From Vulcanimicrobiota bacterium (GTDB lineage Bacteria > Vulcanimicrobiota > Vulcanimicrobiia > Vulcanimicrobiales > Vulcanimicrobiaceae), in the NCBI GenBank assembly GCA_027307235.1, contig DAHUXH010000009.1, positions 1 through 35,582 on the forward strand: 35,582 nucleotides of DNA, read 5' to 3'. Position 1 is the first letter of the stretch. Every line of letters begins with the position of its first letter. Of the stretch, positions 24,392 through 33,844 are shown piece after piece. The notes below the pieces were generated by a model. That model was not told where the DNA came from. It ran no database searches and saw only the letters and a program-made list of their open reading frames with translations. The translations under genes were made by a program, and so were the position numbers.

Positions 24392-24667
24392 ATGACCGAC
24401 GTGTGGCAGATGTTCTCAGTCTTGGCCGAGGCTCGCAAGCGTCGCGAGATCGACCCAACGCTGACCGTGCTGAGAGAATGCGCGGCGGAGGCAGGCGATC
24501 AGGTCGCTGACCGGTACGTAAAGGCCCGTATTGGCGCCATGTTGGGCCTGTTCGAGACGCTCTCGCCGCTCATCGATGAGTTCGTGAGCATTCCGGTCGC
24601 CACCGTACGCGGCATCGTTGGCTTGCGCGGGCGTCTGCAATCGCTCTTGAAGCGCAACGCCAAGTGA
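24392..24667 (+). CDS. Small helical protein, function unknown
   Basis: A 91-residue product I do not recognise. It looks almost wholly helical: a charged first half (LAEARKRREIDPTL, AAEAGDQVADRYVKAR) and an amphipathic second half (AMLGLFETLSPLIDEFVSIPVATVRGIVGLRGRL) with a basic end. No cysteines, signal peptide or clear ribosome site. Its stop overlaps the GTG of the following decayed gene (GTGA), the overlap style used by real operons here, which favours it being a gene, perhaps itself left over from the operon that decayed. Confidence 0.5.
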   Translation: MTDVWQMFSVLAEARKRREIDPTLTVLRECAAEAGDQVADRYVKARIGAMLGLFETLSPLIDEFVSIPVATVRGIVGLRGRLQSLLKRNAK

Positions 24668-25329
24668 ACCGATTGAGAGCGGCGCTCTCGTTTCGCGGTG
24701 AGATGAGCCGGCTCGGCTATATCGCGATAGCGTGCGTCGGCGTCGTGATGAAGCATGTACTGGACGTGTCCATCGCTGCTGCATTCCATCGGCACTGGGA
24801 TGTCGCGAGTTATCTCATACCCGTCGGCGTGCCCGCAATGGCGGGTCACTTGAGGTTCAACGATATGCGCTTCTTGGCGGTCATGCTCTGCGGTTCGCTG
24901 GCGTTTGCATGGGTGGGTTTGGCGATCACCGCCAGGCGCTTTCGCACCGGGTCATGGGCGCGGAAACAATATCGGGGCGACTCGCACCGCCGTATGCGGT
25001 CACGACGTCCGTGGACATTGCCGCTCCTCCTGAGGTCGTCTGCGCAATGTCGTGAGATTCCCCGACTTGCCGCCACCGACTGAACTGCCGTTTCCCGTAG
25101 GCATCGCCACCTCCACAACTATCTGGTCTCGCGGCACGGCGAATTTATTTTACAGCGGCTTCCGAACGGCGGAACGCGTCTGATCGGGACGACCTGGTAT
25201 CAGCATCACCTTTGGCCGGCCGGGTATTGGAAGCTCTGGTCGGACACCATCATCCACGATATCCACCTGCGCGTCCTCGATCACATCAAGCATCTCTCAG
25301 AAAGCGCGACTCCGCGACGACGTGCTTGA
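24664..25329 (+). pseudogene. Remnant of a membrane/SRPBCC-domain fusion protein
   Basis: Pieces of one protein family appear in three frames. 24664-about 24950 encodes an N-terminal membrane part (RLGYIAIACVGVVMKHVLD..., SLAFAWVGLAITARRFR). About 24955-25040 continues in another frame with APPYAVTTSVDIAAPPEVV. Loss of one G near 25042 (TGGCGC to TGCGC) moves the frame, after which RNVVRFPDLPPPTE can be read. From about 25095 the C-terminal SRPBCC end is read in the first frame (HLHNYLVSRHGEF, LPNGGTRLIGTTWYQHHLWP, WSDTIIHDIHLRVLDHIKHLSE) to a stop at 25327. Relative to intact family members, several membrane helices and about 60 residues of the SRPBCC core are missing. The last bases overlap the -35 of the arsR promoter. 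Confidence 0.82.
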
Positions 25330-25354
25330 CATGAATATTCGAATATCATAATGT
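25326..25354 (+). promoter_or_regulatory. Promoter and ArsR operator of the arsR-hyf operon (leaderless)
   Basis: TTGACA (25326-25331), 17-bp spacer, TAATGT (25349-25354). A perfect 12-bp palindrome ATATTCGAATAT (25335-25346) fills the spacer, so a dimeric repressor bound there would block RNA polymerase. The transcript should start at about 25361-25362, on or next to the GTG start codon at 25362, giving a leaderless mRNA. Confidence 0.82.
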
Positions 25355-25361
25355 AGCCTGT

Positions 25362-25673
25362 GTGCTGCGCCATTTTAAAGCCGAATTTTTCAAAACCCTA
25401 GGCCACCCCACGCGGATTCGCATCCTCGACGCGTTGCGCGATGGGGAGTTGACCGTGGGCGATCTGCAACAACGGCTTAAAGCTGAGCAGTCGGCGGTGT
25501 CGCAACACTTGGCGGCACTGCGTTCCCGCGATTTCGTGCATGCGCGGCGCGTTGGTACGTCAGTTTGGTACTCGGTGGCCGACGCGGCGATTTGGGAGTT
25601 GCTCGATATCGCACGAGATATCTACGAACGGCAGCTCAGCTCCAACCGCGCGATGTTTGAAGCCTTGCAGTAG
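25362..25673 (+). CDS. ArsR-family repressor, likely regulator of the hyf operon
   Basis: A 103-residue winged-helix protein: KTLGHPTRIRILDAL, LTVGDLQQRL and the recognition helix AEQSAVSQHLAAL followed by the wing HARRVGTSVWYSVAD. It has no cysteine at all, so neither the ELCVC arsenic site nor the dithiol of sulfide/redox sensors is present, and no His-rich alpha-5 metal site is evident; the signal it senses is unknown. The GTG start coincides with the predicted transcript start. Its stop overlaps the hyfB start by one base, so it is the first gene of the hydrogenase operon and probably represses it. Confidence 0.92.
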   Translation: MLRHFKAEFFKTLGHPTRIRILDALRDGELTVGDLQQRLKAEQSAVSQHLAALRSRDFVHARRVGTSVWYSVADAAIWELLDIARDIYERQLSSNRAMFEALQ

Positions 25674-27346
25674 TGGCGGCGTTTCCAGAATTACGCGTCG
25701 AGTTCGGGCCCACGCTTCTGGCAGCGCCGTTTTTCGCGCTGCTGGCGCTCGTTGCTCCGGCGGTCATTCTTTCCGTTCTCCGCCGGGAGCGTATCGGGCA
25801 TCTGCCGCTGCTTGTCGTTTTCGTGCTCAGTATGGCGGCGGTGCTGCTCGCGCAAAGCGTGGCCGCGTTTGCATTGGCCTGGGAGGCGATGACACTCGCA
25901 TCCGCGTTCCTGGTTGGGACGTACCACGAGCGGCGCGCCGTGCGGCGGGCCCTATTCTCGTATCTGCTGGTTGGACATATCGGAGCCGCATGTATCATCA
26001 CGTCGCTGGCTCTGCTCGGTGCGCACGCGCACAGCTATCGCTTCGCGGATATTGCTCGCGCTGCGTCGTCGCTGCCCGCCGATCTTCGGGTCGCGGCCGT
26101 GGTGCTCGGCCTGGTGGGCTTCGGCTCGAAAGCCGGTGCGTTGCCCCTTCAGTTTTGGCTGCCGCGCGCGCACCCGGCTGCCCCGGCCTCGGCGTCGGCG
26201 TTGCTTTCCGGCGTCATGTTGAACATCGCTGTCTACGGTTTGCTGCTGCAATGTCTTTTGTTTGCAGCGCCACTCACAATACCGCTCGCACTCACCATCC
26301 TGATCGTCGGCATGATCACGTCGCTGACCGGCGGTCTGTTTGCCGCGGTTGAAACTGATCTCAAACGGCTGCTCGCCTACAGTTCCATTGAAAACATCGG
26401 AATCGTTGTCAGCGTCCTCGGATTCGCGGCGCTTTCCATGGCTTGCGGTATGCCGCGCCTTGCGGCGCTCGCGGTGCTGGCGCTGCTCTTTCACGCGATC
26501 GCGCACGGAGTATTCAAGAGCCTGCTGTTCTTGGCGGCGGGTGACGTGCTGGATGCCGCACACACCAGCGATTTGGAACACTTGGGAGGGCTACTGCAGG
26601 CATTCCGTTTCGGTGCTCCGGCATTCTTTGTCGGCTGTTTGGCAGCCGCGGCATTGCCTCCGCTCAGCGGTTTTGCGGCGGAGTGGCTGATCTTTCAGGC
26701 GTTTCTGCACGGATTGGCCACGGCATCGCTGTTGCTGCAAATGACGAGTGTGCTTGCAATCGCGTGTCTCGCAACGGCAAGCGGCATGGCCTCGATCGCG
26801 TTTATCAAAGCATTCGGAGTCGGCCTGCTCGGTGCGCCGCGATCCACCCACCCACGTGCACCCCAACGATTCAACGTGGCCGCTGTCGCACCGGCGTGGC
26901 TCGCCGTTGTGACGCTTGCCCTCGGCCTAGCCCCGGCGCTGGCGCTGCGCCCGCTTCTCGCCTTGGCGACTACGATCATACCTTCTGCGGGAATGGGGAT
27001 GCCCGATGTGCCGCCGGTGCCGGTGTGGATTGCGGCTTTGCCGGTCGCCGGTGCGATCGGTGCCCTGCTGCTCGCGCGAAGACGCGGTGTTCGGTCGGTA
27101 GAAACCTGGACGTGTGGTTCGCCGGCGACCGCGCGTTCGCAATACACGGCGACGGCCTTTTCCAATCCAGTGCGGATCCTTCTTGGCGCTCTAACGCACT
27201 CGTTCATCGATGATGCGGCACGCAACGTGGCGGCGGTCGTGCAGCGACTCGCGCGGCGCGCGCGTATTCTTCAAGCCGGACATGTGCGCGTGTATCTGGC
27301 GTACATGCTGGTGACACTGGTCGCGGTTCTGGTGATCGCGCGATGA
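25673..27346 (+). CDS. hyfB: Hydrogenase-4-like membrane subunit B (proton antiporter-like)
   Basis: A 557-residue protein with about 14 membrane segments, of the NuoL/MrpA/HycC/HyfB family, expected to pump or translocate H+ or Na+. Key charged residues are kept: Glu71 in helix 5 (AWEAMTLASAFLVG), Lys153 (GFGSKAGALPLQFWLP), Lys231 (DLKRLLAYSSIENIG) and Lys282 (HAIAHGVFKSLLF). The C-terminal ETWTCGSP...QYTATAFSNPVR stretch is specific to HyfB/HycC-type subunits. The GTG start shares one base with the arsR stop and the 3' end overlaps hyfC by 4 nt. Confidence 0.93.
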   Translation: MAAFPELRVEFGPTLLAAPFFALLALVAPAVILSVLRRERIGHLPLLVVFVLSMAAVLLAQSVAAFALAWEAMTLASAFLVGTYHERRAVRRALFSYLLVGHIGAACIITSLALLGAHAHSYRFADIARAASSLPADLRVAAVVLGLVGFGSKAGALPLQFWLPRAHPAAPASASALLSGVMLNIAVYGLLLQCLLFAAPLTIPLALTILIVGMITSLTGGLFAAVETDLKRLLAYSSIENIGIVVSVLGFAALSMACGMPRLAALAVLALLFHAIAHGVFKSLLFLAAGDVLDAAHTSDLEHLGGLLQAFRFGAPAFFVGCLAAAALPPLSGFAAEWLIFQAFLHGLATASLLLQMTSVLAIACLATASGMASIAFIKAFGVGLLGAPRSTHPRAPQRFNVAAVAPAWLAVVTLALGLAPALALRPLLALATTIIPSAGMGMPDVPPVPVWIAALPVAGAIGALLLARRRGVRSVETWTCGSPATARSQYTATAFSNPVRILLGALTHSFIDDAARNVAAVVQRLARRARILQAGHVRVYLAYMLVTLVAVLVIAR

Positions 27347-28170
27347 CCGCGGTGCAGGTTGCGATTCTCATCGTGTTGGCACCGCTGCTGCAAGGATCGA
27401 TGCACTCGCTGCGCGCGCGGCTCAGCGGGCGACCCGGACCGCCGGTGTTACAGCCGTATCGTCAACTTCGGAAACTCGCATCGAAAGAAGCGGTCGTCGC
27501 ATCGAACGCGTCCGCGCTGGTGTCCGCGGCCCCGGGCATCGCAATCGGCGTTTCGCTGACGCTTGCGCTGCTCGTCCCGCCGCTGATTCATCGCGACGCT
27601 GCGGTTGTGGACGTGGTGGCGCTTGCGCTGACCATTGCGCTCGGACGCTTTATGCTCGTCCTCGCGTCGCTCGATACCCGTTCCAGTTTCGCCGGAATGG
27701 CTGCGAGCCGTGAGATGCTTTTCGCGGGACTGACTGAAGCGCCGCTCATCCTCGCACTGGCCGCCACGACCCTCGTTCACGACACGCTGTCCCGGATACT
27801 CGCCGCTGCCGCGATCGTACTGGTCATGCTCTCGGAAACGGCGCGCATTCCGGTCGACAATCAGGAGACGCACTACGAACTGACCATGGTCCACGAAGGT
27901 CTACTTCTCGAATACTCCGGTTGGCAACTCGCGATGCTCCAAGCGGCAGCCTATGTGCGCCAGGCGTCATTCTTCGTACTGGCTGCCACGGCGCTGCCTG
28001 GTCCGCCGATTGCGGTTGCCGCTTGGCTGGCATTCCTTGCCGTGCTCATTCCTGTGGTGGAACGGTGCTACGGGAAGATGCGCTTCTTCGAAGTGCCGCA
28101 ACTCTTCGCATCCGCTACACTACTCGCGGTTGCAGGCCTCGGGTTGCGCATTCTTGGTGTGGCCTTTTGA
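27343..28170 (+). CDS. hyfC: Hydrogenase-4-like membrane subunit C (NuoH-like)
   Basis: A 275-residue subunit homologous to HycD/HyfC/NuoH, which couples the catalytic arm to the antiporter subunits. Typical elements: LLQGSMHSLRARLSGRPGPPVLQPYRQL at the N-terminus and the acidic loop ETARIPVDNQETHYELTMVHEG (165-186) facing the hydrogenase. About eight membrane segments; slightly shorter than HyfC (about 315). The ATG overlaps the hyfB stop, and the next gene starts inside its stop. Confidence 0.93.
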   Translation: MTAVQVAILIVLAPLLQGSMHSLRARLSGRPGPPVLQPYRQLRKLASKEAVVASNASALVSAAPGIAIGVSLTLALLVPPLIHRDAAVVDVVALALTIALGRFMLVLASLDTRSSFAGMAASREMLFAGLTEAPLILALAATTLVHDTLSRILAAAAIVLVMLSETARIPVDNQETHYELTMVHEGLLLEYSGWQLAMLQAAAYVRQASFFVLAATALPGPPIAVAAWLAFLAVLIPVVERCYGKMRFFEVPQLFASATLLAVAGLGLRILGVAF

Positions 28171-28772
28171 CGACCATCGTCGCGGTACTCGCCGCCGCCG
28201 CATTGGTGATCGATTCGCGCTTGCGTTCAACGCTTGCTGCGTACATCGTACTTACCGGCGCAACCCTGTATATGGCGCTCACGCACGTCGCGACGGTGCC
28301 GCAACTCGCATTCTTCGCTCTCATAGCAGTCGTGAAAGTCGTCGCGGGTCCGGCGGCGGTTGTTCTGCTGGCTCGGCAGTACGGTCTTCGCGGCGATCTA
28401 GGACCATCGATAAATATCGCCTGGCGTGGTGCCATCGTTTTGGCCGCCGCATTCGTTGCGTTTGAAGTCGGCAGCATGCCGGCGTTCGCTGCCATACCAT
28501 CGTCGAACGTCGTGCTCTTCTCCGTATTTGCTTCCATCGTCACGATCGTACTCCATCGGAACCTGCTCGCACACGTCATCGGATTACTTGCGTTGGGGAG
28601 TTCGATCAGTCTTGCCGGCGTGCTGTTTGCGCCGGGATTGCCGGGATCGATCGAAGTCGCCGGTACGTTTGATGCAGTGATCGCGACGCTCGTCGCGGTG
28701 GTTGTCGCACGCGCCATTGTTGCCTACGATCCGCGACTGGATGTACGCTCGCTGCGGGATCTGCGCGGATGA
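28167..28772 (+). CDS. hyfE: Hydrogenase-4-like membrane subunit E
   Basis: A 201-residue membrane protein with about six helices, corresponding to HyfE, a NuoK/MrpC-like subunit found in Hyf-type and some other group 4 complexes. The TTG at 28167 (TTGACG) overlaps the hyfC stop (TTGA); the frame extends upstream to 27921 but that part is inside hyfC. The segment NLLAHVIGLLALGSSISLAGVLFAPG and the following helix match HyfE's C-terminal part. Its stop overlaps hyfF by 4 nt. Confidence 0.85.
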   Translation: MTTIVAVLAAAALVIDSRLRSTLAAYIVLTGATLYMALTHVATVPQLAFFALIAVVKVVAGPAAVVLLARQYGLRGDLGPSINIAWRGAIVLAAAFVAFEVGSMPAFAAIPSSNVVLFSVFASIVTIVLHRNLLAHVIGLLALGSSISLAGVLFAPGLPGSIEVAGTFDAVIATLVAVVVARAIVAYDPRLDVRSLRDLRG

Positions 28773-30148
28773 GCACGATGACGCTGCTGGCGGTCGTCGC
28801 GCCGCTGGCCGGCGCCGCCGTTTCCCGCCTGGTCAACCAATCACTGCGCACGGTTGCTCGCGCACTGACCGGAGCGATCGCCGTCGCGCTCACTTGTCTC
28901 GCAGCCGCTCACCTCGATCGCCTATCCGCGGTATTCGCGATCCTCATCTCGGTCGTTAGTTTTGCGGCGACGATCTTTTCCGGCAGTCTCTTTCCCGAAG
29001 CGCCGCATGACGACGCACCCTGGCAACGGCGCTCCATCTATTTCGTGCTTCTCGGCGCGTTCTGGTCGAGCATGCTGTACGCGGTGTGTGCCGGTACCTT
29101 CACGGGCGTGTGGATGGGCATCTCCGGCACGACGCTTGCCACGACATTCCTGGTCGGGTATAGCGGCGGAAAACCGGCGCTTGAAGCTGCATGGAAGTAT
29201 CTGCTCCTGTGTAGCGTCGGCGTTGCCCTGGCGCTCATCGGAATGCTGCTCCTCGGACGCGCCGGTATGGCGGCCGGCATCCCGCCGGCTGACGCACTCT
29301 CTTGGGATGCGCTCGCGCGGCGCGGCTTCGCTCCCCATGGAGAGTTGGTGCGCGTGTCGCTCCTGCTCATGCTGGTCGGCTTCGCGACAAAGGCGGGCCT
29401 TGCACCGATGCACGCATGGTTGCCTGACGCGCACTCGAAGGCTCCCGCGCCGATCAGCGCCTTACTCTCGGGCGTGCTCGTGTCGTCGGCGCTCTACGCC
29501 CTCATGCGCGTACGAAGTGTAGCTACGCTGGGTGACGCATTGCTCTTTGACCGGACCTTGATCGTCATCGGCGCAGCATCGGTGCTTGTAGCCTCGACGC
29601 TGATGCTTGCGCAGCGCGATGTCAAGCGTTTGCTGTCGTATTCGACCATCGAGCACAGCGGACTGATTGCCCTTGCGCTGGGCATCGGAACGCCGCTTGC
29701 GGTGTTCGCAGCACTCTTTCATACACTGAGCCATGCATGTACGAAGTCGACAGCGTTCTTTGCTATCGGCATCGTGCACTACAAACGCGGCAGCACCGCC
29801 ATCGCCTCGCTACGAGGCCTGTGGAACGATCGTGGCGGTAAACTCCTGCTCGCGGCACTCGTGGGGCTGGCCGGGTTTCCGCCGTTTGGAATGTTCCTTT
29901 CGGAGCTACTGATCGTGATCGCCGCCGCCGCGGCACATCAATGGGTCGCGCTTGCCTGCGCGCTCCTCGGCATGACGCTTGGTTTTGCCGCACTAGCTCG
30001 GCTGGCAATCGACACGGAGTCCGGTACATCCGCGTCCCGGCACACGCCACCTGTGCCGAAGATCGCGCTGGCCGCGACAGGTATCATGGCCGCTGTCGCG
30101 GTCGCAATCTCGGTGCTGCCGTTCCTTTCGGTGAACATCCTGCAATGA
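28769..30148 (+). CDS. hyfF: Hydrogenase-4-like membrane subunit F (antiporter-like)
   Basis: A 459-residue NuoL/MrpD-type subunit with about 13-14 helices. The channel lysines are kept: Lys208 (FATKAGLAPMHAWLPDAHSKAP), Lys286 (DVKRLLSYSTIEHSG) and the Lys in SHACTKSTAFF. The helix-5 glutamate that pairs with a channel lysine in this family appears to be Ser119 (WMGISGTTLATTFLVG), unlike HyfB, where it is Glu71. In E. coli HyfF is about 525 residues. The operon uses it as the second pump-like module. Confidence 0.92.
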   Translation: MSTMTLLAVVAPLAGAAVSRLVNQSLRTVARALTGAIAVALTCLAAAHLDRLSAVFAILISVVSFAATIFSGSLFPEAPHDDAPWQRRSIYFVLLGAFWSSMLYAVCAGTFTGVWMGISGTTLATTFLVGYSGGKPALEAAWKYLLLCSVGVALALIGMLLLGRAGMAAGIPPADALSWDALARRGFAPHGELVRVSLLLMLVGFATKAGLAPMHAWLPDAHSKAPAPISALLSGVLVSSALYALMRVRSVATLGDALLFDRTLIVIGAASVLVASTLMLAQRDVKRLLSYSTIEHSGLIALALGIGTPLAVFAALFHTLSHACTKSTAFFAIGIVHYKRGSTAIASLRGLWNDRGGKLLLAALVGLAGFPPFGMFLSELLIVIAAAAAHQWVALACALLGMTLGFAALARLAIDTESGTSASRHTPPVPKIALAATGIMAAVAVAISVLPFLSVNILQ

Positions 30149-31239
30149 CCGCAAGCGGTCGTGGCAGAACGGACATCGTGGTTGGTCCCGTGCACGCGGG
30201 CATCATCGAGCCCGGCCGCTTCACGTTCAATACGTTCGGCGAAACGATCGCATCTCTGGATGTGCAGCTTGGCTTTTCACACCGTGGCATTGAGCACGTT
30301 CTCGCAGGAATGCCTGCGACTGATGCGGCGCCGCGAATCGCCCGAATCTGCGGTGCATGCAGCGTCGCACGGTCGTGGGCGTATGCACGTGCGCTGGAAG
30401 GCTTGGCAGGCGTGCAACTCGATGGCCATAGTGAGTTCGTGCGCTTGATTGTTGCCGAACTCGAACGCATCTATAATCACCTATTCGACATCGGTTCAAC
30501 ATGTGCGGGGGCTGGCTATGGATTCGGACGAACGACGGCACTCGGGTTGAAAGAACGCGTCCATCGTGTCTGCGCCGAACTGAGCGGTCATCGCTTCTTG
30601 TTCGATGCGATCGTGCCCGGCGGCGTTCGCTCAGGCATGTGTATCGAACCTGACCGTGCGCGCCGTGAATTGATGGCAGTTCGCGACGGTGTTGAGCGGT
30701 TGATCGCGGACATTCTCGGCAATTCGTCCGTGTATCATCGTTTTGAGGGGACGGGTCGGGTGACACTGCAGACCGCACGCGAGGTGCGCGCCGTCGGTCC
30801 TGCGTTGCGCGCATCCGGCGATGGGGTCGACACCCGCGTGCAGAATCGATATGGGGCATATGAACACATCACGCCGCAGGTTGTGGTAGAGACCTGCGGT
30901 GACGTCTTAGCCCGGTTCCGTGTGAAGGTCGGCGAGCTACGCGAGTCGCTGCGATTGGCGATGTATGGATTGGAACAGGTGCATTTTTGGCCCTCATATG
31001 GACCGCAACCCCTCCGGCCTGAGGCCGGCACGATGATCGGCATCGTCGAGGGGGCCCGTGGAGTGGAGAGCGTGATCGTCGAGTGTGATGCTCACGGCGT
31101 ACTTCGCAATGTTCGCGTAACATCAGCATCGGCGCGTAATTGGCCGCTGATTGCACGCGCGATGGAAGGCAATATCGTTCCTGATTTTCCGCTGGTGGCG
31201 AAGAGCTTCAATCTTTGCTACGCCTGCGTTGACAAGTAG
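30145..31239 (+). CDS. hyfG: Group 4 [NiFe]-hydrogenase large (catalytic) subunit
   Basis: A 364-residue NuoD/HycE-type large subunit. The four Cys ligands of the NiFe centre are present: Cys69 and Cys72 (RICGACSVARS), Cys358 and Cys361 (NLCYACVDK). GPVHAGIIEPGRFTF and LGFSHRGIEH are family signatures. It lacks the N-terminal NuoC-like domain of HycE/HyfG, and it ends right after the second CxxC, so there is no C-terminal peptide for a maturation protease. ATG 30145 overlaps the hyfF stop; the frame upstream is antisense-like shadow in hyfF. It should reduce protons or oxidise H2 on the cytoplasmic side. Confidence 0.93.
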   Translation: MTASGRGRTDIVVGPVHAGIIEPGRFTFNTFGETIASLDVQLGFSHRGIEHVLAGMPATDAAPRIARICGACSVARSWAYARALEGLAGVQLDGHSEFVRLIVAELERIYNHLFDIGSTCAGAGYGFGRTTALGLKERVHRVCAELSGHRFLFDAIVPGGVRSGMCIEPDRARRELMAVRDGVERLIADILGNSSVYHRFEGTGRVTLQTAREVRAVGPALRASGDGVDTRVQNRYGAYEHITPQVVVETCGDVLARFRVKVGELRESLRLAMYGLEQVHFWPSYGPQPLRPEAGTMIGIVEGARGVESVIVECDAHGVLRNVRVTSASARNWPLIARAMEGNIVPDFPLVAKSFNLCYACVDK

Positions 31240-31242
31240 ACG

Positions 31243-31683
31243 ATGAAGAAATTCACGAACTCGCTTGGCATTCGTCATCTCGTGTGCGGCAGTTGCAATG
31301 CGTGCGAGCACGAGATGAGCGCTCTAGAAGGTCCGCACTATGACCTCACGCAGGATGGGTGGGAGATCGTTGCCTCGCCGCGCCATGCCGATGTGGTTAC
31401 CGTCACCGGGCCGATGACCGACGCCATGCGGGCCGCTGCGGAAGGCACGCTCGAAGCGGTATCACGACCGCGTGTGGTGGTTGCGGTAGGCGATTGCGCC
31501 GTCGGCCATGGTGTATGGAGCGGCGCGCCATACAGCGGCTTAGGCGGCGGCGTCGAGATGCACGCGGAAATTGAGATTCCCGGATGCCCTCCGACGCCTG
31601 CGGACATCAAGCGCGGGCTCCTGCAGGCAGCGAAGCTCCTCGACACGGATGCGGAGAAAGGCGAACGCTCCGACGAGACATAG
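31243..31683 (+). CDS. hyfI: Group 4 [NiFe]-hydrogenase small subunit (NuoB-like)
   Basis: A 146-residue NuoB/HycG/HyfI-type subunit that holds the proximal [4Fe-4S] cluster next to the NiFe site. Likely ligands are Cys18 and Cys21 (CGSCNACEHE), Cys85 (VGDCAVGHGVW) and Cys115 (IPGCPPTP). It is shorter than HycG/HyfI (about 250) and lacks their C-terminal extension. The ATG lies 3 nt after hyfG. It is the last gene of the operon; no ferredoxin-like (HycB/HycF) or hyp gene follows, as a convergent gene ends 8 nt away. Confidence 0.93.
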   Translation: MKKFTNSLGIRHLVCGSCNACEHEMSALEGPHYDLTQDGWEIVASPRHADVVTVTGPMTDAMRAAAEGTLEAVSRPRVVVAVGDCAVGHGVWSGAPYSGLGGGVEMHAEIEIPGCPPTPADIKRGLLQAAKLLDTDAEKGERSDET

Positions 31684-31690
31684 ACGCCGC

Positions 31691-33844
31691 TCAACCGCCC
31701 GGATGATAGGTTCGTTCGGTGTGGCCGATGAGTTGTTCGGGATAGAAGTAGACCGTTCGCAAATGCCCGGTGCTGTAGCGCACCGCTTCGTCGTCAAAGT
31801 GAGCCGAACCCGGATGTCCGCTCTCGCCGCCGGCAGTTACCGCCACCGCTCGCACGTGCGGGCCGAACTCGACCACGGCGACGAAGCTGTTGCCCGCATT
31901 TCCATAGCGCCGCTTGGTGTTTGGTCCGGGCGCTGCGTAGAAGGCCGCAAGCGATCCCCAAATGCCCGAAACGAACGGCACAGGGATGCTCGGCGCGTCA
32001 TCGTTGTAGTGTGCCGTGATGTCGTCGTTCAGGCGCTGAAAGCGGTTGATATTGCCCCACGGCGTGCGCCACGTGCCGAAATCGGCGGTGAGCCGGTCCA
32101 CGGCAACCGAGAGACTCGCCAGTTTTTGCTGTGGCGGCGTCGCAAGCAGTTTTGCTTGATCGACGCTGCGTGCTGCGCGCGCGAGCGATTCCGCCCAGAA
32201 GACCGCGAGTGAGGTGGGAATGGAATCGGGGCCCCACTCGTCATTCCACGTGCGCAGGGCGGCGATCGGACCGGCCAACTTCGCGTCGTGCTGTGGGGCG
32301 GCATCGTACGCGCGCACCAGCGACGGAATCAGCGCCGCGAAGAACGGCAGATGCGAATCGAAAGCTGCCGCGCGCAAACGCTCCAATGTGAAGTCGTGAC
32401 GGCCGGTGAGCAGCATCGCCGCATGCGCTCCACGAGCGTTTTCGCCGGCGGTGTCCATGTAGCGCGGGAAGTCTTCGCGCTTGGGACTGTCGGGTCCGGC
32501 GGTTGAATACGGCCAATCGTTGGTGTTGAAGACCCAGCCGACTGCGGGGTTCAGACTGTGCGGCTCTTCGTCGAGCGAAAGGACACCGCGCCAATCGGTC
32601 GCCGGATTCGATCCGTCGACCGGCTTGGTGTAGTCGAAGCGATCGTCGCGCCGCGGAATGAACTGCGGGTGCATGTACGCAATCTCACCGTGGTCGTCGG
32701 CGAAGATCGTGTTGTTCGACGAATTGGCCGCAAGTTCCGAGATTTTGCGGAACGAAGCAAAGTCGGTGGCCTTCGTGCGCAGATAGGATTGTTCGAGCGC
32801 GCGGACCGGGCGATTCATCAACGCCTCGGCGATCCACTTCCCGTTTGCCGACGCAACGATCGGGCCGTGATGCGTGTGGTACACGGTAAATGATTTTTTC
32901 GCCATCGTGCCGTCCGGCAGGCGATACGGAATGACGACCGTCGATACCGTCACCGGCCGCAGCTCGCTGCCGTACTGATAGAACGGGCGCCCGTTGCGCC
33001 GGACGATCGTTTCTTCGAATTGATCGACGACATCGGCGCCGGTCGAGGTATGCATCCAGCCCGCGTGCGGGTTGAAACCTTGATAGATGAAGAACTGCCC
33101 CCACGTCACCGCGCCATATGCGTCCAGGCCTTCGTCGCTCGACATCTGCAGTTCCGAGCGGAAGTAGAAAGACGTGTGCGGATTGATCAGCAGAAGCGCA
33201 TGGTGATCGACGGTGTTCTTGGGCGCGATCGCGATACCGTTGGAACCGCCGGGATCTGGAATCGGCAGGTTCGCGTCGTCGGCCGGTGGCCGTACCGACA
33301 CGGTACCGCCGCCGTAGAACGCCTGCAATTGGTCGAGTTTTACGCGTTCGATGTCTCCGCCGATGCTGCCCTCGGTGAAACTGAGTGCCATCCAGGGTTC
33401 GAAATGCGTGATGACGAGCGGATGCACCGACGGATGTGTCTGCAGATAGTAATTGAGCCCATCGGCCCAGGCGACCATGAGCTTTCGCAACCAGGGCGGA
33501 CTCGTGCGATACTTCGCTTGCAAGTCGGCAGTGTCGATGAAGAGACGCTCGCGCAAATCCGAATAAATCGCCGATTCACCCTCGGCTTGAGCAAGCCAAC
33601 CCAGTGAATTCAGGTAGTTGGTTTCAACGCGATTGAAGTCGTCTTCAGCTTGCGCGTACGCCATTCCGAAGACGGCATCGGCATCGGTCGCGCCGTGGAC
33701 GTGCGCGATTCCCCAATCATCGCGAACGATGGTGACGCGTTGCGCCTCGTTCGCGAGCTGCGAGGCTCCATATCCGGGCGCGCTCGACGCGGTGACGCTA
33801 CAGCAAAGAAGAGCCCCGGCAAGCAGAAAGCGAGAGATCAGCAT
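31691..33844 (-). CDS. Exported penicillin acylase-family amidohydrolase
   Basis: A 717-residue Ntn-hydrolase precursor. A signal peptide (1-22) is followed by the alpha chain and the autocatalytic cleavage site GG-SNGIAIAP, making Ser201 the N-terminal nucleophile of the beta chain. The beta chain shows TVYHTHHGPI, NTIFADDHGEIAYMHP, NDWPYS and GESGHPGSAHFDD, typical of the group that includes acyl-homoserine-lactone acylases (PvdQ) and aculeacin A acylase. Such enzymes hydrolyse amide-linked acyl chains outside the cytoplasm: quorum signals, beta-lactams or lipopeptides. The substrate cannot be told. It may share a transcript with the arsR-AHSA1 pair upstream (74-bp gap). Confidence 0.92.
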   Translation of the reverse strand: MLISRFLLAGALLCCSVTASSAPGYGASQLANEAQRVTIVRDDWGIAHVHGATDADAVFGMAYAQAEDDFNRVETNYLNSLGWLAQAEGESAIYSDLRERLFIDTADLQAKYRTSPPWLRKLMVAWADGLNYYLQTHPSVHPLVITHFEPWMALSFTEGSIGGDIERVKLDQLQAFYGGGTVSVRPPADDANLPIPDPGGSNGIAIAPKNTVDHHALLLINPHTSFYFRSELQMSSDEGLDAYGAVTWGQFFIYQGFNPHAGWMHTSTGADVVDQFEETIVRRNGRPFYQYGSELRPVTVSTVVIPYRLPDGTMAKKSFTVYHTHHGPIVASANGKWIAEALMNRPVRALEQSYLRTKATDFASFRKISELAANSSNNTIFADDHGEIAYMHPQFIPRRDDRFDYTKPVDGSNPATDWRGVLSLDEEPHSLNPAVGWVFNTNDWPYSTAGPDSPKREDFPRYMDTAGENARGAHAAMLLTGRHDFTLERLRAAAFDSHLPFFAALIPSLVRAYDAAPQHDAKLAGPIAALRTWNDEWGPDSIPTSLAVFWAESLARAARSVDQAKLLATPPQQKLASLSVAVDRLTADFGTWRTPWGNINRFQRLNDDITAHYNDDAPSIPVPFVSGIWGSLAAFYAAPGPNTKRRYGNAGNSFVAVVEFGPHVRAVAVTAGGESGHPGSAHFDDEAVRYSTGHLRTVYFYPEQLIGHTERTYHPGG

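Follow-up and report, generated by a model that had tools for sequence, protein, structure and literature searches.

Does an operon that retains all four cysteines of a [NiFe] site encode an enzyme that converts H2? This question is posed by arsR-hyfBCEFGI in the window, the whole stretch of 35,582 bases analyzed here, which is one entire contig of an Eremiobacterota genome (2.41 Mb in 20 contigs, estimated 96.6% complete; named relatives within the same clade are Candidatus Eremiobacterota). The original prediction took the locus for a stripped-down group 4 [NiFe] hydrogenase under unusual ArsR regulation. As an observation it is partly confirmed, and its interpretation is partly supported. 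With a probability of roughly 75%, we favor an ArsR-autorepressed, minimal Ehr-type complex that is predicted to act as a redox-driven proton (or sodium) pump and would neither make nor oxidize H2.

The operon itself is real, and its coordinates and gene calls had been given correctly, as judged from open reading frames and family matches. Seven collinear genes, overlapping or abutting, span positions 25362–31683 of the plus strand. The first, arsR (25362–25673; NF033788, 5e-26), encodes an ArsR/SmtB-family repressor of the Rv0081 type. It is followed by hyfB (25673–27346) for an antiporter-like proton-channel subunit (Hydrogenase 4 subunit B, 3.5e-124), hyfC (27343–28170) for a NuoH-like membrane anchor (PF00146, 1.8e-24), and hyfE (about 28167–28772) for a HyfE-like membrane subunit, which presumably starts at a TTG overlapping the hyfC stop. 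Family matches are as expected for six of the seven genes; hyfE is the exception, its match being weak (NF008556, 1.3e-8, below cut-off), yet its position is the same in relatives. A second antiporter-like subunit is encoded by hyfF (28769–30148; Hydrogenase 4 subunit F, 3.7e-86), the large subunit by hyfG (30145–31239), and a NuoB-like small subunit by hyfI (31243–31683; PF01058, 1.3e-21). The pump residues E71, K153, K231, K282, E337, and K379 of HyfB are the same as in the aligned E. coli HyfB, while E139, K208, K326, and E379 are kept in HyfF and the conserved Glu residues in HyfC. Further, HyfI aligned with E. coli HyfI retains the four proximal [4Fe-4S] ligand cysteines and a hydrogenase-type CxxC spacing. 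The Mrp-antiporter-like and NuoH-like membrane set and the NuoB-like small subunit, for which the Ehr definition asks, are all present. Two small open frames without a Pfam or NCBIfam match lie 5' of the operon (24392–25083), and a penicillin-amidase-family gene lies 3' of it on the opposite strand (31691–33844).

HyfG (364 aa) carries both CxxC pairs, C69/C72 and C358/C361, which are invariant in all 16 clade members aligned. Equally invariant are an Arg-Gly loop and E22, which aligns with E21 of MbhL, the catalytic Glu (PMC7684303). The claim of intact metal ligands holds for these four cysteines and the four cluster cysteines of HyfI, but not for the surroundings of the pairs. In the alignment with HycE and MbhL, Arg76 takes the place of the His in CxxCxxxH, and Asn356-Leu357 that of the Asp-Pro ahead of the last CxxC; all three residues are likewise invariant in the 16 members, and the canonical L1 CxxCxxxH and L2 DPCxxC surroundings of group 4 [NiFe] hydrogenases are absent from the clade. 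The HyfG model, built with 24 related sequences, reaches a pLDDT of 90.8, and its best fold match in the PDB is HycE (7z0s_E, TM 0.93), followed by many 49-kDa subunits of complex I. HyfG thus resembles E. coli HycE/HyfG in fold, the four cysteines, and the catalytic Glu; in contrast, the E. coli side has the canonical His and Asp-Pro and a C-terminal extension, whereas HyfG ends three residues past its last cysteine and leaves no extension to cleave. We propose a role for the four cysteines because they are invariant over about 50% sequence identity, which argues for function; they may bind a metal or be a relic.

Such a protein could belong to a true group 4 [NiFe] hydrogenase, in which reduced ferredoxin would dock on HyfI, a Ni-Fe site in HyfG would evolve H2, and protons would be pumped, the maturation proteins having been missed, diverged, or been replaced. 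The invariance of the ligand cysteines, E22, and the Arg-Gly loop fits this possibility, as does the ranking of HycE as best match by both structure and sequence, and the kept E22 together with the hydrogenase-type CxxC of HyfI counts against a non-hydrogenase. Moreover, no protease would be needed for HyfG, because it ends where hydrogenases are normally cleaved. We nevertheless regard a working hydrogenase as unlikely: besides the exchange of His for Arg and of Asp-Pro for Asn-Leu next to the ligands, both the tree and the distribution of maturation genes speak against it.

In a tree of 61 rows and 367 columns, in which the trait columns, about 10, were left in, the window clade comprises 23 rows including the Bacillota sequence L111 (support 99/99) and is nested in an Ehr clade of 56 rows (100/99) from which HycE/HyfG, Mbh, and Ech are excluded. 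The 56-row clade also takes in cysteine-less Ehr proteins and the pair L087/L139 (Vampirovibrionia/Melainabacteria), and the four-cysteine state requires two changes on the tree. A collection scan with the HyfG alignment shows the family to be very large, with 573 confirmed relatives, of which 80 were kept. Nearly all lack both CxxC pairs; cysteine-less relatives read ISGD and FNLSYSG where the window clade has CGxC and FNLCYxC. Exceptions outside the Eremiobacterota are L087, L139, and L111, which have the four cysteines and keep the His. Among the 12 Vampirovibrionia sequences read, the last CxxC is present in every one, and the motif search caught the first in 11.

According to the literature, Ehr complexes do without CxxC metal-binding motifs (PMC10284858), a rule also found in PMC6349859, and the presence of both invariant pairs in the window clade counts against an Ehr assignment. 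HyfG is therefore Ehr by tree position and non-Ehr by the CxxC rule, a cysteine-retaining variant within the Ehr clade. The Ehr systems of Geobacter, Nitrospira, Azospirillum, rhizobia, and others share with it the membrane set, a C-terminal KSFNL motif, and the one tree clade, but lack both CxxC pairs. We found no paper on a four-cysteine, hyp-less Ehr complex, which is weak evidence given limited literature coverage.

That hyp genes are missing, as predicted, applies beyond the immediate neighborhood. None adjoins the operon, and the whole genome, at 96.6% completeness, contains no hypD and neither hypE nor hypF above cut-off. The best hypE match scores 63 bits against a cut-off of 252 and lies in the range of general PurM/SelD-type background, and the better of two hypF fragments reaches 12.6 bits against 466. 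HyfG is the sole NiFe_Hases match in this genome. Of 149 genomes examined for the phylum, 32 carry a member of the HyfG clade, defined by E below 1e-60; the clade genomes are mostly draft MAGs, which counts against a non-hydrogenase reading. Of these, 26 are without hypD, the window's own included; the 6 of 32 with hypD compare with 25 of the 117 other genomes of the phylum (Fisher p = 1). Genome incompleteness was rejected as the cause and cannot explain the pattern, because completeness reaches 90% or more in 15 of the clade genomes without hypD. In the second four-cysteine Ehr lineage, the Vampirovibrionia, hypD is found in none of 12 genomes with a close relative (genome completeness not stated), nor does it occur in the single Bacillota genome carrying L111.

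Additionally, hypE above cut-off tracks hypD exactly in the 25 genomes tested: it is absent from 15 hypD-less clade genomes and 6 Vampirovibrionia genomes, and both genes are present in the canonical Ech genome G005. Matches of 24–27% within the phylum were rejected as extra positive controls; nine that were fetched lack the cysteines and resemble NuoD, so that G005 and E. coli are the only four-cysteine controls with hyp genes. Among the six hypD-bearing clade genomes, G118 consists of a single contig of 3.5 Mb and probably represents Vulcanimicrobium. Its hyp genes would be explained by the group 1h hydrogenase reported for Vulcanimicrobium (PMC9758169). The hypD matches in the other five (G082, G083, G090, G091, and G117) score 365–395 bits, compared with about 430–515 for other full-length ones, and begin later in the profile; they may come from a different hydrogenase type.

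We thus consider it most likely that the complex is not a hydrogenase that converts H2. Because the genes for assembling the metal center are missing from its genome and from most relatives, it probably neither makes nor uses H2, and the designation [NiFe] hydrogenase is probably wrong. The surprising part, which the original prediction missed, is that intact CxxC pairs occur mostly without Hyp machinery, and this in two lineages. In surveys, the two CxxC motifs serve to identify group 4 [NiFe] hydrogenases and to credit organisms with H2 metabolism. Intact motifs do not prove a hydrogenase here, because both four-cysteine lineages mostly lack hypD, and the test fails for the window clade because the pairs, long kept in the two lineages, are found mostly in genomes without cofactor-making genes. 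With ligands present and the Hyp-made cofactor apparently absent, the two lineages provide a test case from nature for the stepwise loss of the Ni-Fe site that has been proposed on the way to complex I. More tentatively, and at somewhat less than even odds, the four-cysteine pocket might bind a cofactor other than Ni-Fe(CN)2CO; it would then be a second kind of catalytic metal site in the complex I/group 4 hydrogenase superfamily, lying between hydrogenase and complex I, with the ligands kept and the Hyp-made cofactor gone. What the four cysteines bind is a direct and answerable question.

The picture of a stripped-down enzyme does not hold for the family. No 2x[4Fe-4S] ferredoxin is encoded in the window, as had been noted, but this is no special trait, since none occurs in about 120 related loci either; the only places where the scan found such a ferredoxin were E. 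coli and L068, the canonical Ech locus. A ferredoxin-less subunit set is the usual one for Ehr. The Rhodococcus plasmid operon has the same six subunits without ferredoxin, and five of the six are annotated in the Azospirillum operon, again without ferredoxin. In contrast, the E. coli HycE/HyfG systems have ferredoxin subunits, a NuoC-like domain, a HyfD subunit, and hyp genes.

The NuoC-like domain was likewise correctly reported as absent from HyfG, but its absence is not a family trait. A stretch of 100–130 aa with an EREM motif is fused N-terminally to HyfG in 31 of 31 fetched Eremiobacterota relatives; of seven scanned, three score above the Pfam 30-kDa cut-off, and the remaining four fall below it or give no match. 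Homologous loci with both ferredoxin and NuoC-like subunits had been named as evidence against the predicted subtype: the relatives carry the NuoC-like part and no ferredoxin. In the window, HyfG starts at 30145 inside the hyfF stop, HyfF is complete, and the NuoC-like stretch is missing. A NuoC-like gene elsewhere in the genome was rejected as a substitute, the sole PF00329 match, a strong one on contig C12, being taken as ordinary complex I. Among the 31 relatives compared, the loss is seen only in the window's genome, and it may reflect genuine reduction, the onset of decay, or a fault in the assembly.

An Ehr operon that functions in relatives and is decaying here appears quite unlikely. 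Besides the missing domain, HyfG departs from the 15 other aligned relatives at six sites where these are invariant, and it sits on a long end branch (0.68 versus a median of 0.35), as decay would predict; against this, the clade member L042 has equally many odd sites with its NuoC-like domain kept. Moreover, none of the seven frames is interrupted, the overlaps between them are tight, no pump, cluster, or cysteine residue has been lost, and HyfG is modeled at high confidence.

For an Ehr operon, control by ArsR is a known arrangement rather than the unusual feature it had been taken for, because the M. tuberculosis operon Rv0081–Rv0087 provides a published precedent (PMC6728331, PMC6177252). 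The window ArsR is indeed free of cysteine, and its best solved match is Rv0081 (6jmi, 1.2e-17), along nearly the whole length of the window's protein (residues 4–102 of 103). Rv0081 has no defined metal site; it represses its own promoter, where an inverted repeat is bound (PMC6177252). It heads an Ehr/hyc operon that was judged to be non-hydrogenase because M. tuberculosis, like the window's genome, lacks [NiFe] assembly genes (PMC6728331). A related operon on a Rhodococcus plasmid differs from the window in that the small-subunit gene comes first and the large subunit carries a NuoC-like domain and none of the cysteines. In Rv0081–Rv0087, too, the order begins with the small-subunit gene. 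The Azospirillum Ehr operon has no adjoining arsR. In the clade of the window, arsR lies directly before hyfB in 20 of the 26 relatives with enough contig; a separate clade with conserved arsR linkage had been anticipated as the mark of a distinct subtype, and both are found.

Just 5' of arsR, a perfect 12-bp palindrome, ATATTCGAATAT (25335–25346), is the probable ArsR operator. Relatives have an AT-rich imperfect dyad with the consensus ATTAGAATATTNGAATATGCTAAT at the same place. A sigma-70 promoter around the palindrome was considered and is not supported, since no candidate passed the consensus scan. A conserved TAATAT-like element lies a few bases before the arsR start (25347–25362) and at the same place in relatives; it would suit a leaderless arsR mRNA, although the consensus promoter scan gave no support.

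The conserved residues suggest how this Ehr-type complex could work. Because there is no ferredoxin arm, a soluble low-potential donor (ferredoxin, flavodoxin, or another reductase) may feed the HyfI cluster directly. A conserved neighboring gene as the electron partner was rejected: none was found across the clade, where synteny is genus-level only. In the HyfG cavity, electrons might be accepted by a small oxidized substrate, a quinone, or a metal on the four cysteines. The loops joining HyfG to HyfC would then drive pumping in HyfB and HyfF, with conformational or electrostatic coupling. An ArsR dimer presumably sits on the dyad 5' of arsR and keeps the operon off, to be released by a non-thiol signal that, as with Rv0081, may be tied to low oxygen. 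An ion-gated or redox-sensing module in place of an energy-conserving pump, with the four cysteines as a structural metal site or redox switch, would accord with the lack of a dedicated donor and conserved neighbor and with cysteines retained without hydrogenase machinery, but is highly improbable, as the conserved pump residues of both antiporter-like subunits and the HyfI cluster would be needless for a switch.

The sulfane reductase MBS of Pyrococcus (6u8y) is hydrogenase-derived and has lost H2 chemistry while keeping ion pumping; it also keeps some cysteines without using them (PMC7684303). Unlike the predicted pump of the window, with four cysteines and four cluster ligands, MBS has two of the four cysteines and a three-cysteine proximal cluster.

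Several related loci show further arrangements. On contig C154 of G090 (L061:258-10546 and L032), two complete six-subunit operons stand head to head around a single arsR, with subunits of both copies about 40–63% identical to those of the window. At L054:12956-13372 (G082:C19:50952-51416), an intact operon is closely followed on its 3' side by an incomplete second copy of hyfG that contains an internal stop, and a second ArsR gene follows the last gene of the operon on the opposite strand at L055:12756-13055 and L057:11140-11451. In public plasmid records, annotations of Ehr-type large subunits (e.g., H1, H13, H21, and H25) vary, the labels being nickel-dependent hydrogenase large subunit, NADH-quinone oxidoreductase subunit C, and hydrogenase expression protein HypE.
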